A stretch of DNA of 42,228 nt from Pseudobdellovibrionaceae bacterium (GTDB lineage: Bacteria; Bdellovibrionota; Bdellovibrionia; Bdellovibrionales; Bdellovibrionaceae): positions 1-42,228 of the forward strand of contig JABWCN010000038.1 in assembly GCA_013359135.1 (NCBI GenBank), in the 5' to 3' direction. Shown here piece by piece: positions 28,557-34,536 of this stretch (positions are counted from its first letter, which is position 1; each line of letters opens with the position of its first letter). The notes beneath the pieces are model-generated. The model searched no databases. It was not told the DNA's origin and saw only the letters and a list, made by a program, of their open reading frames with translations. The translations under genes were made by a program, and so were the position numbers.

Positions 28557-29861
28557 ATGCTTAAAAAAATAGAGACTATGATTAAAATTCTGAGTTTTTA
28601 TCAGAAAAATAAGGTGTTACTCTTTATAAGTATTTCTTTTAACATAGTCTTTGCTAACAGTTTAAAAGTAGCTGATGAAAAATTTGAAAAGGGTTTTTTT
28701 TCAACTGCAGCCAAATTATATGAGCAACAACTTAAAAGTGTTAAAGAGGAACAGCTTTCTGAAGTGAAGCTAAAGTGGCTTCAATCACTTGTGTTAGCAG
28801 ATTTTTATGAGAAAGCGCTCATTGAAATTACTTCTTGGAAGTTAAGTGAGCAAGATAAGTACTTCCCATTTTATGTATTGATCAAATTAAAAATTTTTCA
28901 AAAATATATAGAGCATTATAGTCAACAGATGCAAAGAACAGATATTGAGAATGAAGATTCAATTTTGAAAAAGAGTCCAGAGTATTTTCATGAGCAAATA
29001 ACAACAAATTATAATTACTTAATTGAAAAACGAAAGTCATATTTGCAACTAATGTTAAATCAAAAAATGTTTTTATTCGAAAGTAGAAATGCAGATTTTG
29101 AAAATATTCCAACTTTTTATGATTATTTGGTTTTTGAGTTTATTAGTCACATTAATTCTGATCTAAAACTAGGTTTAACAGTTAATGAGCTCTTGTTGGA
29201 AGCTTCAGCAACAAAGCCAGAGTTCAATAAAGGAAAGGCTTTGTTATCAGAAGTTTTACCTACTGAGGTAGATAAAAAAAGAGCTTATGTTAAAGAGCGC
29301 TGGTTGATAGAGCTCAAGAAAAGACAACTTGATATTGCATTACAAATTGATTTTGAAATAAATAGTAAAAATAGAGAGGAAGAACAAGAAAATATTTACT
29401 TAGCTGAGAAAATAAAAAAAGCATATTTGTTTATAAATCAGTTGAAAACGTTTCGCGCAAAGGCAGAGTGGTATGTAGTCATAGCTAATTTGGAAATGCA
29501 GAATTTGAATTATGAAATGGCTTATGAAGCTTGCCAAAAGGCAACAGATCTTCATAAATCAGTAAGCACTGCAAAATGCATATCATTGGAAAAAAAAATT
29601 CTCGAAAAAGAATTAGTATTTGAACATTCATCTTTTAACACTCAACAAGAGGTAATAGTCCCTTTACGTATAAGAAATGTAGATAGACTTTACTATAAAG
29701 TTTTTCAAATTTCTAGGCCGTCAGAATGGACTAAGAAACTAGATGAGTTTAAAAAATCAAATACTCAACTACTGACCCAAGATTCAGTTCAGGCTTATTT
29801 AGCTCAAAAGCCTGAACTCAGCTCAGAGATTGAAATTAAAAAAAAAAAAATATTTTTTTGA
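28557..29861 (+). CDS. Alpha-2-macroglobulin-like protein, N-terminal part (frame 1)
   Basis: The first 434-residue frame of a large exported protein. A signal-like hydrophobic segment (about 20-33, VLLFISISFNIVFA) follows a basic start, and GAGGTG sits five bases before the ATG. Residues about 35-130 are helical and TPR-like (FEKGFFSTAAKLYEQQL), with more helical repeats to about 345. From about 350 (HSSFNTQQEVIVPLRIRNVDRLYYKVFQI) beta structure typical of the first macroglobulin (MG/BMG) domain begins. The frame then runs into a run of 13 A at 29838-29850 and stops at TGA 29859-29861. The same MG-type fold continues in the +1 frame, so this is the 5' part of one gene of about 1990 codons, not a stand-alone gene. 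Confidence 0.85.
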   Translation: MLKKIETMIKILSFYQKNKVLLFISISFNIVFANSLKVADEKFEKGFFSTAAKLYEQQLKSVKEEQLSEVKLKWLQSLVLADFYEKALIEITSWKLSEQDKYFPFYVLIKLKIFQKYIEHYSQQMQRTDIENEDSILKKSPEYFHEQITTNYNYLIEKRKSYLQLMLNQKMFLFESRNADFENIPTFYDYLVFEFISHINSDLKLGLTVNELLLEASATKPEFNKGKALLSEVLPTEVDKKRAYVKERWLIELKKRQLDIALQIDFEINSKNREEEQENIYLAEKIKKAYLFINQLKTFRAKAEWYVVIANLEMQNLNYEMAYEACQKATDLHKSVSTAKCISLEKKILEKELVFEHSSFNTQQEVIVPLRIRNVDRLYYKVFQISRPSEWTKKLDEFKKSNTQLLTQDSVQAYLAQKPELSSEIEIKKKKIFF

Positions 29862-32800
29862 AAATATTCAACTTAAATTGTCAAAAAAAACTCCTGGTGA
29901 GTACATATTGATAGTTTCATCTGATAAAAATTTTGAATTCAGCAAAGGTTATGTAGCGGCTACTAGTTTTTGGGTGAGTGATCTTGTATTACTTACACAG
30001 ACCGCTATTGAGAATGATCCTGAAAAAGCGATTGATCAAAAAAAAATAGTGAATGTTCCCATTCAGCATTTATACTATTTTAACTCTATTACAGGAAAAC
30101 TAGAAAAAGATGTTAATTTATTGTATTCCTATGACACACGGGTAACTCAGAAATTATCAAATCAAGCTGAGTCTTCAGTTCTTTCTTTAGATGTCGATTT
30201 TTCTGGTAAACAGAAGTTAGGTTATGGCACAGAATTTTCAGCTTTAGCTTATAAACAAAATTCTTATAGTTTTATAAAAGAATATATTCAGCATCCCCAA
30301 TTACAAAAAATTTCTGTATTGATTGAAAAAGATAGACCTATTTATCGACCTGGACAAGAAATACAAATTAAAATCATTGGTTTAAAGAAAGTCCCTTTCG
30401 GTTGGCAATTAATCCCAAATAAAAAAATAAGTTTAGAGCTAAAAGATCCAAATTATCAAACAATTCATAAAGCTGATTTAGTACTCAATGATATGGGTAA
30501 TAGTGTATTTCGTTTTAACTTACCAAAGATAGGTGTCTTAGGACAATTTCAGATAGTAGTTCAAATGATTGATCCTGAATATAATGAGTTACAAATTCAG
30601 AAGTCCTTTTCTGATATTTTCAGAGTGGAAGAGTATAAAAGACCAGATTTTTTTGTGGGAATTCAAGGAGACAAAACCTCTTGGATATTAAATAATGAAG
30701 TCAAAATTAAATCATTTGCTAAGTATTATCATGGCTCTCCAGTTAAAAAGGCAAAGGTTCAGTATCAGATTAAAAGTCAGGCATTTAAACCATGGTTCTA
30801 TGGCGGATTTTGGCCTCAGCAAGAGGTAACTCAGTCGTCAATAATTCAAGGCGAGGGAATTACGAATGAACAAGGCGAGTTTGAATTTACATTCATTCCA
30901 AAAGCTGAAGATAAGCTCCCCAAAAAATTTGTAGTGAGTCTAGATGTCAGAGATAGCAGCGGATATACTATATCGGAAAGTAAAGAGTTTACCGCCGCTC
31001 AAACTGAGTTTTTGATTAATCTTCAAAGTGAAAAAGAGTTTTACTTAGCTAGTGAAAATTTAAAACTCAATGTGGGGCTTAAAGACCTGAACTCTAATAA
31101 TTATTCAGGCCAGGTAGAGTTAGTGCTTAGTAAGATTCTCCCTCCAGATGAACAGCAAATTAGGATTATGAAAGAGACTTTAGTTTCTGATGGAATGAAT
31201 TTCAAATCACCGATAGTACCAAAACCAAATCTTGCATTTTATTTAAAAAAACTAGCGCAAAAAGAAATTCAAAGAAAGAGTATCACTGTCTTTTATGAGA
31301 AAAATAGTTCCATAGAGTTATCTAGTCTAGAAGAAGGATTTTATCAGTTAAAAGCTTTTTCTAATGACTCAAGAAAAAATAAAATAGAAAATGAAATGTA
31401 TGTTATAGTTTATGATAATGGAAAATTTCTTTCAAAATTTTTTGTACCAAAATTGACTATTTTAGATAAAAAAAATTACGAAGTTGGACAAAAGGTAAGA
31501 GTCCTTTTTGGTTCTTCAGAATTAAAGGCTGACGTGGTATTAAATTTATTAAAGCATCAGTTTTTGATAAAGAACCAAATTTTTAGAGGTGAAGAAAAGT
31601 TTCATCTTTTTGAGTTCACTGCAGAGGAAAATAGTCAGAAAAATATTTCTATTAATTGGTTTGGTTATGGTGAAAGTGAAGTAATTCAAGATAAAGAGGT
31701 TATAGTAGTATCCCCATTGAATAAAAAGTTATATATGGGGATGTCTTTCAAAAAAGAAATAAGGCCTGGAGAACAGCAAGATATTTTATTGAAAACTAGC
31801 ACTAAAACTAATGAGATTGATGGTTTGGTCAAGATTTATGATCAGTCTTTAGATGTTTATTCTAAAGAACACAGTGATCGATTTTTGGAATTATATGCTG
31901 CCGATGAATTTTCACGCGAAGCTTATACAAATAATTTCTATCCATATCTTTTTGTTATTCCAGAGAAAAAGAGTTTATTTTCTGAAATGTTGAATTTATT
32001 TAAGGAGGTTTTAAAAAAGAAAAGTTTCGATCCTCAATTGCATATTGATTATTTCAAAAATAAGCAAAGATTTGATATGGTAAACTCTAGGCTAGGAGCT
32101 CTTGATGAAAATGTTGCTGGAAGCGATAGTGCAAAAGGCATTGTTAGTCTTAATTCTCCAACAACAATTTTAGAAAGCGATAAAGCAGAGTTAAATGAAA
32201 ATAAAAGTTTTAGAAAAGTAGAGCCAAGTTTAAAAACATCAATATCACAGTCTGGAGCTTATCAGGTCAATTTGCGCTCAGATTTCTCTGAAACAGCATT
32301 ATTTTCGCCCATAATCAAATTTACAAAAGGTTTGTCCAAAGTAAGTTTTAAAGTGCCTGATCAACTTACAACCTGGAGTATCAAATCTTTATTTTTTTCT
32401 AGAGATGGTCGTGTTTCTCAAGAGGAAGCCAGTTTTATTACAAATAAAGAGTTAATGGTAAAGATTCAAACTCCAAGGTTTTATAGGGAAAAAGATAGTT
32501 CGGAAATTCGAGTTTATGTTGAAAACAAATCTCCAGATAATCTTGCAGGCAGCTTAAAGCTCTCATTAGAACAGTCAGATAAAAATGTTTTTAACCAATA
32601 TTCCGAAGAACCAAATCTAAAATATTGGAACTTAAAGTCTGGAGAACAGGTGTCTTTAGCTTGGAAAATTCAAGTTCCATCTGAGTTAAAAGATTTAAAA
32701 ATTACTGTTTTAGCTCAGTCTAGTGAGTTTAATGATGCGGAACAAAAGATAGTTCCTATTTTGCCATCAAGAGAGCGTTTTATTGAAAATCAACTCATTT

Positions 32801-34536
32801 TTCTTGATGGTAACAGTAAGGCAAAAATGGGATTTTCAAAATGGAATGAACGTGATGATTCACGAATAAGTGAACTTCTTATGGTGCAAATTGATCCTCA
32901 GCTACCTTTAATGTTATTGAATTCTATTCCTAGTTTGATTAACTATCCTTATTACGGAACAGATCAGTTAGTTAATAAATTTGTACCATTAGCCATTTTA
33001 AATTCACTCTATATTCAGAACCCTCAATTGAAAAAATATCTTGCTACAGTTCCTGAAAAAAACAAAGTCACTTTACCATGGGAGGATTCAGATCCTCGCC
33101 GTTTGATTCGTTTGACCGAATCACCTTGGAAACTTATTTCCGAGGGAATTGAATCTAGTGAGAGTTTGATTTCTCTGTTAGATGAGAAAAATATTGATAA
33201 AATAAGAAAACATGTTCTTACAGAGCTAGAAAGTAGACAATTAGCTAGTGGAGGATTTTCTTGGTTTCCTGGGGGAAAAGAAGATTTTTATATCACACTT
33301 CTCGTATTAGAAAGTTTTGCTGAGGCTAAAAAGTACCAAGTCCCTATTCCAAAGTTAATTTTAGACAAGGCTTTACACTATGTTTTTAATGAATTACCAA
33401 AGTATTTAAAAGCTGAGATGACTGAAATTGAATTTTTAACTTACGGTTCTTATGTCTTATCAAGTTTTCTAGATCAGACCTTAAATCAAGTAAAGTTCAA
33501 ACAAGCATTAGATGTATGGATTTCATTTATAGAGAAGAATAAAAAACTATTGACTCCTCTTGGTTCGGCCTATTTGGCACATATTTATTATCAACGGAGT
33601 GATTTACAGAAAATGGAAGAAGCTTTAACTAAGGCATTTGAGGGGATGAAAAAAGATAAAACTATAGGGGCTTACTGGGCTGAAGAGGATAAATCTTGGC
33701 TATGGTACAATGATACAGTGGAGAAGCATGCTTTTTTTATACAAACCTTAATGGAACTCAAACCTAATGATGAAAGAGTTGGAGATCTTGTTAAATGGCT
33801 TTTATGGAATAGGAAGGCAAATGAGTGGAAATCAACTAAGACAACGGTAAAGGCCATTTATTCTATAATTAGTTATATGAAAAAAAGAGGGGCTTTAGAT
33901 AAAGTAACAAATATAACTTTAAATTGGGGAAAACAAAAAAAAGAGTTAGTCATAGATCCTAATGCCTTTAATAAGGAGCCATTTAGATTTTCAAAAAAAG
34001 AAAATTTTAGTTTATCTGATGGAGTAATAGAGATAAAAAAAGTTGGAGATTTACCGGTTATGTCCTCTGCGACTTGGATTTACACCTCTGATAAAGCTCA
34101 AGAAGCCTCTAAATCAAAAAATTTGTCTTTGGAGAGGAGTTTTTATTTAGTTCGACATGGCCAACGAAAATCCATCATAAAACAGTTAAAAGATGGTAGC
34201 CAAATCAAAGTCGGCGATGAAATTGAAGTCCAAATAAAGATCAAGTCAAAAACTCCTCTGGAATATATCCATCTAAAAGATCCTAGAGGAGCTGGATTTG
34301 AAGCGAATAGTCTTTTAAGTGTATATAAATGGGATATACTTCCAAGATACGAAGAACCAAGAGATTCTCTTATGAATTTCTTTTTCCCTTGGCTTCCGCA
34401 GGGAGAATATTTATTTCGCCATCATTTCAGGGCAACGACAAAAGGAAAATATAAATTTGGTTCCGCGGTTCTTCAATCATTATATTCCCCTGATTTATCA
34501 GCGTATAGTTCAGGTATAGTTTTAGAGGTTGAATAA
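29830..34536 (+). CDS. Alpha-2-macroglobulin-like protein, main part (frame 2), thioester lost
   Basis: The second frame opens at a TTG at 29830 just ahead of the A-run, but no ribosome-binding site is evident; I regard it as the continuation of the frame-1 gene. It has 1568 residues. Recognisable parts are the MG2-type segment VLIEKDRPIYRPGQEI near 160-175 and further MG domains to about 850. The macroglobulin bait/ANA-type region SFKVPDQLTTWSIKSLFFSRDGRV lies near 837-860, and an alpha/alpha-toroid TED-like domain at about 1030-1330. The place of the thioester motif (YPYGCxEQ in thioester members) reads YPYYGTDQ at 32944-32967, so the reactive Cys is gone, as in E. coli YfaS-like members. 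Such proteins are thought to trap proteases in the periplasm. No pbpC partner is adjacent. Confidence 0.88.
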   Translation: MKLKKKKYFFENIQLKLSKKTPGEYILIVSSDKNFEFSKGYVAATSFWVSDLVLLTQTAIENDPEKAIDQKKIVNVPIQHLYYFNSITGKLEKDVNLLYSYDTRVTQKLSNQAESSVLSLDVDFSGKQKLGYGTEFSALAYKQNSYSFIKEYIQHPQLQKISVLIEKDRPIYRPGQEIQIKIIGLKKVPFGWQLIPNKKISLELKDPNYQTIHKADLVLNDMGNSVFRFNLPKIGVLGQFQIVVQMIDPEYNELQIQKSFSDIFRVEEYKRPDFFVGIQGDKTSWILNNEVKIKSFAKYYHGSPVKKAKVQYQIKSQAFKPWFYGGFWPQQEVTQSSIIQGEGITNEQGEFEFTFIPKAEDKLPKKFVVSLDVRDSSGYTISESKEFTAAQTEFLINLQSEKEFYLASENLKLNVGLKDLNSNNYSGQVELVLSKILPPDEQQIRIMKETLVSDGMNFKSPIVPKPNLAFYLKKLAQKEIQRKSITVFYEKNSSIELSSLEEGFYQLKAFSNDSRKNKIENEMYVIVYDNGKFLSKFFVPKLTILDKKNYEVGQKVRVLFGSSELKADVVLNLLKHQFLIKNQIFRGEEKFHLFEFTAEENSQKNISINWFGYGESEVIQDKEVIVVSPLNKKLYMGMSFKKEIRPGEQQDILLKTSTKTNEIDGLVKIYDQSLDVYSKEHSDRFLELYAADEFSREAYTNNFYPYLFVIPEKKSLFSEMLNLFKEVLKKKSFDPQLHIDYFKNKQRFDMVNSRLGALDENVAGSDSAKGIVSLNSPTTILESDKAELNENKSFRKVEPSLKTSISQSGAYQVNLRSDFSETALFSPIIKFTKGLSKVSFKVPDQLTTWSIKSLFFSRDGRVSQEEASFITNKELMVKIQTPRFYREKDSSEIRVYVENKSPDNLAGSLKLSLEQSDKNVFNQYSEEPNLKYWNLKSGEQVSLAWKIQVPSELKDLKITVLAQSSEFNDAEQKIVPILPSRERFIENQLIFLDGNSKAKMGFSKWNERDDSRISELLMVQIDPQLPLMLLNSIPSLINYPYYGTDQLVNKFVPLAILNSLYIQNPQLKKYLATVPEKNKVTLPWEDSDPRRLIRLTESPWKLISEGIESSESLISLLDEKNIDKIRKHVLTELESRQLASGGFSWFPGGKEDFYITLLVLESFAEAKKYQVPIPKLILDKALHYVFNELPKYLKAEMTEIEFLTYGSYVLSSFLDQTLNQVKFKQALDVWISFIEKNKKLLTPLGSAYLAHIYYQRSDLQKMEEALTKAFEGMKKDKTIGAYWAEEDKSWLWYNDTVEKHAFFIQTLMELKPNDERVGDLVKWLLWNRKANEWKSTKTTVKAIYSIISYMKKRGALDKVTNITLNWGKQKKELVIDPNAFNKEPFRFSKKENFSLSDGVIEIKKVGDLPVMSSATWIYTSDKAQEASKSKNLSLERSFYLVRHGQRKSIIKQLKDGSQIKVGDEIEVQIKIKSKTPLEYIHLKDPRGAGFEANSLLSVYKWDILPRYEEPRDSLMNFFFPWLPQGEYLFRHHFRATTKGKYKFGSAVLQSLYSPDLSAYSSGIVLEVE
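29838..29850 (+). other. A13 homopolymer at the frame switch of the A2M gene
   Basis: Thirteen consecutive A followed by TATTTTTTTG. In the first frame the tract is read as four Lys codons, then Ile-Phe-Phe-stop. In the second frame it continues as Tyr-Phe-Phe-Glu-Asn into 1560 further codons. A tract of 12 (or 15) A joins the two frames. No other A-run in a gene of this window that I saw exceeds nine. It is a natural site for polymerase slippage, for a phase-variation-like length change, or for a sequencing error. Confidence 0.9.

Follow-up and report, generated by a model that had tools for sequence, protein, structure and literature searches.

A run of thirteen adenines divides an alpha-2-macroglobulin gene of a Pseudobdellovibrionaceae bacterium in what looks like a recent and probably leaky gene break

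The window analyzed in this study, a stretch of 42,228 nucleotides from the genome of a Pseudobdellovibrionaceae bacterium related to Bdellovibrio (assembly GCA_013359135.1, contig JABWCN010000038.1), carries an alpha-2-macroglobulin (A2M) gene of about 1990 codons that is split between two reading frames (Table 1). The frames part at codon 428, where the sequence has exactly 13 A, then TA, then T7. Only a tract length divisible by three would bring the two frames together, and an error in the length of the T7 run would affect the frame in the same way as an error in the length of the A13 run. The end of the A-run together with the T7 run (A7-TA-T7, positions 29844-29859) forms a perfect 16-base palindrome. 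Read by eye, the ATG of the 5′ part is preceded by a Shine-Dalgarno (SD)-like GAGGTG and its N-terminus resembles a signal peptide. The remainder of the 5′ part appears to consist of a helical-repeat-like N-terminal region followed by the opening portion of the first macroglobulin-like domain; this fold assignment is tentative, and the structural model for this part is poor (mean pLDDT of 49.7). All of the named domains that scored above the Pfam cut-off, in the order MG2, bait region, A2M and bMG10, lie in the 3′ part. The neighbors of the gene are a hexapeptide-repeat protein gene and an SNF2 helicase gene on the opposite strand.

Table 1. Coordinates of the A2M gene parts and associated features within the window
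Feature	Position	Strand	Description
5′ part of the A2M gene	28557..29861	+	434 aa, TGA right after the A-run; from the ORF list
A13 run	29838..29850	+	frames part here; from the sequence
T7 run	29853..29859	+	adjoins the A13 run; from the sequence
3′ part of the A2M gene	29830..34536	+	1568 aa, one frame over; MG2, bait-region (BRD), A2M, bMG10 (Pfam)
Thioester motif site	32950..32967	+	YYGTDQ here, Y[HS]CSEQ in 5/5 congeners (alignment A1)

For comparison, five Bdellovibrionaceae genomes (among them G001, G002, G003 and G005, with G003 the nearest to the source genome, G000) served as congeners. Searching the named genome collection with a single protein gave no matches, while the profile search gave Bdellovibrionaceae relatives; two of the congeners match named Bdellovibrionaceae metagenome bins. 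In BLASTP searches the 434-residue part matched residues 19-433 of the G003 orthologue, which is a single frame of 2025 codons (38% identity, E value of 2e-85), and the 1568-residue part matched residues 432-2025 of the same protein, to which it is 52% identical in alignment A1. Because these matches are collinear, the two parts are halves of one protein. The first-pass annotation had stated that the A-run splits one A2M gene that is otherwise open over about 6 kb, and both statements were borne out by the sequence, the ORFs and the BLASTP collinearity, with no second stop or indel found across that distance. Its list of alternatives, namely slippage, a length-variable switch and an assembly error, was likewise well chosen.

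The A2M gene is unbroken in all five congeners, at lengths of 1981-2025 codons, and the matched region stays in a single frame in 78 of 80 distant homologues, so the frame break is specific to this genome. The uninterrupted frame of roughly 2000 codons and the export signal expected of a bacterial A2M are present in the congeners, but the frame is split here. No long A-run was found at the aligned place in any of the five congeners. The distance from a conserved KP to a conserved PG around the break is exactly 31 residues in each of them, and so the congeners have no linker of variable length here. The A2M locus itself is not collinear with those of the congeners, and control genes could therefore not be chosen by synteny.

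Pattern searches of both strands of the 3.84-Mb genome returned 452 exact runs of A9, 49 of A10, three of A11, four of A12 and one each of A13 and A16. Of the nine runs of at least 11 A, only the A13 run described here is inside a gene, the other eight all being outside ORFs of at least 60 aa, whereas in a sample of 30 A10 runs about 18 are, by our reading, in ORFs, with a frame break at none of them (Fisher p of 0.02 for the in-gene share). The genome avoids long runs, and since A10 runs are found in genes and longer runs are kept out, it tolerates A10 but not longer tracts in genes, the A13 run being the sole exception. From base composition alone an A13 run is not rare, as shuffling the window 100 times produced one in 34 cases. 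Among the A10 runs L037-L066 of the source genome, many of those in genes are no more than about 180 bases from the gene start, a location for such runs that is known from other prokaryotes (PMC2831843).

These counts bear on the concern that the break is an assembly or consensus error, in which case the true modal length of the A tract (or of the T7 run) would be in frame and the gene would be intact and merely thioester-free. Length calls tend to fail at a site such as an A13 run beside a T7 run, the source assembly is in 94 contigs, the two matched congeners are metagenome bins, and the A2M gene is otherwise unbroken. In the G001 bin, moreover, an A34 run (L086, G001:C86:2166-2199, minus strand) splits a PhzF-like gene whose G003 orthologue (L224) is an open frame of 300 aa. 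Whether that run is an artefact or a second homopolymer break, it indicates that long runs in this group are subject to error or variation. However, the sampled A10 runs in ORFs are never at a frame break and two A9 runs inside the same A2M gene are in frame, so that the consensus at shorter runs is sound, and short-read stutter would need to miscall the modal length. We therefore regard an error as somewhat unlikely, yet serious enough to be kept in view.

If the A13 run is taken as it stands, the next consideration is how it would be decoded. A classic -1 ribosomal frameshift on AAAAAA(G) was rejected as the way in which the parts are joined, since it leads into the third frame and not into the frame of the 3′ part. 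An internal re-start of the 3′ part was likewise rejected: the starts that follow the run have no SD visible by eye, and a protein made from them would carry no export signal. No significant RNA structure flanks the A13 run (z of +0.74 and -0.65), and the conservation expected of a programmed recoding site is absent, the congeners having no long A-run at this place, so that nothing suggests an evolved frameshift signal. Given the wrong frame of the -1 shift, the lack of structure and the lack of conservation, programmed recoding is unlikely.

Slippage by RNA polymerase is a different matter. A run of at least nine A/T at the frame break followed by an open downstream frame is a feature of slippage-rescued genes, and it is present here. 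Long A/T runs within genes have been shown to yield mRNAs in all three phases (PMC1088944), and in Citrobacter rodentium tssM1 transcriptional slippage on an A11 run is about 20-25% (PMC4256274). As in the A2M gene, the A-run of tssM1 precedes a premature stop that splits a large gene with an intact 3′ frame, and slippage would restore the frame at either run. By analogy with these cases, RNA polymerase slippage on the A13 run very likely still gives a minority of in-frame mRNAs. The two genes differ in that slippage was demonstrated by experiment for tssM, as was the requirement for both of its products, while in the A2M gene slippage is a prediction and a key motif has been lost. Like Citrobacter tssM or Thermus dnaX, the A2M gene might use programmed transcriptional slippage to make two useful products, here the 434-residue N-terminal protein and full-length A2M; the anatomy is of the same kind, with the A-run close upstream of a stop and an open 3′ frame. 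This is nonetheless highly improbable, as the A-run is not conserved in the genus, flanking RNA structure is absent, and the short product, judging from the alignment and a low-confidence model, seems to break off within the first macroglobulin-like domain and not at a domain boundary.

Citrobacter tssM is also a better precedent than the endosymbionts on which the first-pass annotation had based its argument for slippage. The likeness to them holds in that Blochmannia and Buchnera also have single A-run frameshifts in otherwise whole genes, for example visC of B. vafer with 11 A, and the same ambiguity between slippage rescue and early erosion applies (PMC3017870). The analogy is weaker than had been stated, however. 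Coding A-tracts are abundant in Blochmannia, with 153 of A9 or longer in B. vafer (PMC3017870), and the endosymbionts have more than 100 such coding tracts and several such genes, whereas here runs of at least 11 A are nearly absent from genes and a single break was found at such a run. In addition, a direct survey of indels in the Buchnera transcriptome reported no frame-restoring event (PMC5574713).

The state of the gene was examined apart from the break itself. The C, S and E of the thioester motif, which reads CSEQ in all five congeners, are replaced to give GTDQ, and the CxEQ motif of Type I A2Ms is thus missing. The site lies in this genome's only A2M: the source genome is 99.98% complete and has a single copy, while four of the five congeners (G001, G002, G003 and G005) have a second A2M paralogue, which carries CVEQ or CWEQ. 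Amino acid changes on this branch and on the G003 branch were counted at positions identical in all four outgroup congeners, and two conserved genes of the window served as controls, the SNF2 gene being dropped as patchy. In the A2M gene 114 sites changed on this branch and 74 on the G003 branch, with 37 and 14, respectively, in residues 1001-1400 of the 3′ part, the thioester-domain region. The control genes gave 31:29 and 31:34 (pooled, 62:63). The Fisher p was 0.06 for A2M overall and 0.007 for the thioester-domain region, a region chosen after the counts were seen. The ratio of branch lengths, this branch to G003, was 1.4 for A2M and 0.75-0.78 for the two controls. The substitution counts thus point to a gene-wide acceleration that is modest and of borderline significance with just two control genes. 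In B. vafer, four genes that are frameshifted only in that species showed no unusual acceleration (PMC3017870).

From the continuous frame it had been concluded earlier that the gene is not decaying. The absence of a second break in 6 kb held up, but the conclusion drawn from it was not supported, in view of the GTDQ motif, the faster thioester-domain region and the missing second paralogue. The codon-position GC of the split gene is still gene-like, and together with the lack of any other break this means that the break is recent or that the gene is still under selection. If indels are taken to be a tenth of substitutions, a gene decaying neutrally should acquire another break by about 0.5% divergence, so the absence of further breaks bounds the age of this one and does nothing more.

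Loss of the thioester is, in turn, no proof of decay. Thioester-free A2Ms of about 2000 aa with whole frames occur in Elusimicrobia and in Chryseobacterium-type sequences without CxEQ, and in Pseudomonas MagD remains able to trap a protease although it has no thioester (PMC5764988). The loci without CxEQ but with whole frames are L101-L105 and L121 as well as L147, L156, L163, L167-L169, L172, L173 and L175, a distribution which suggests that the thioester was lost repeatedly in the A2M family. The gene described here shares the MG2, bait-region, A2M and bMG10 domains with both Type I A2Ms (SaA2M/ECAM) and Type II A2Ms (MagD, PMC5764988). The Type I thioester motif is present in the congeners and not in this copy, which resembles MagD in lacking CxEQ while keeping the bait region. 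In contrast to MagD, this A2M descends from a thioester-bearing lineage, and where MagD belongs to a six-gene mag operon, the hexapeptide-repeat and SNF2 helicase genes flank the gene here, with no PBP1c directly next to it. The MagD-like absence of the thioester looks like an independent loss and not Type II membership.

A plain recent loss of function, with A13 fixed, slippage too rare to matter and the gene departing along with the second paralogue, would agree with the missing thioester motif, the accelerated thioester-domain region and the absence of the second A2M. We consider it unlikely, as the frame is clean over about 6 kb and as a leak of zero is doubtful, given the transcriptional slippage on long A-runs in those bacteria where it has been measured (PMC4256274, PMC1088944). 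Alternatively, replication slippage in the A13 run might toggle the A2M gene between cells as in a phase-variable (contingency) gene, the assembly having caught the off state. In other species, mutation rates of about 1e-3 to 1e-7 are known for A-runs as short as 7-9 (PMC2831843), so that a switch of this kind is conceivable for a longer run, and an exported protein is a usual target. As in the 5′ phase switches inlA and swrA (PMC2831843), the A-run is able to vary and break the frame. Those switches, however, are near the gene start and polymorphic between strains, whereas the A13 run is deep in the gene, well away from its 5′ end, and was seen in one genome. Since the tract is also absent from all five congeners, and the other runs of at least 11 A in the genome, lying outside ORFs, give no sign that long runs act as switches, we find such a switch quite improbable. 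It is less probable still that this AT-rich bacterium of a predatory lineage keeps a giant thioester-free A2M under A13 slippage control, with the ratio of the N-terminal fragment to a minority of full-length protein mattering and tract length tuning the dose between cells; we consider this very unlikely.

The explanation that we tentatively prefer, while according it somewhat less than an even chance, is a recent slippage frameshift in a gene under relaxed constraint, which would now be a leaky, early pseudogene with a hypermutable tract. The protease-trapping role may already have weakened in this lineage, allowing first a long A-run and then a tract length that breaks the frame to persist, the frameshift itself probably arising by replication slippage in a lysine-codon A-tract that only this species' A2M copy has. 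Most ribosomes would stop at the TGA just after the run and produce an exported fragment of 434 aa, while slippage of RNA polymerase of the kind known from other bacteria would provide the few in-frame mRNAs from which some full-length, thioester-free A2M could still be made. The tract would also be hypermutable at the DNA level. This leaky-pseudogene reading is tempered by the modest acceleration and by the Buchnera survey mentioned above.

Our results indicate that the A13-split A2M gene is a new example of a lineage-specific homopolymer frameshift, which is an already known kind of event, and the break looks like a recent, probably leaky one and not a new kind of genetic switch. Should the run prove to be a consensus error, then single-run "pseudogenes" in AT-rich draft genomes need checks at the level of the reads. 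Because the loss of the thioester, the loss of the paralogue and the frame break occur together in one lineage while the congeners are intact, the order of these events could be dated from sister strains. If the A13 run is real and leaky, this gene would be a clean natural case, outside the endosymbionts, in which to study how far transcriptional slippage delays the death of a frameshifted gene.
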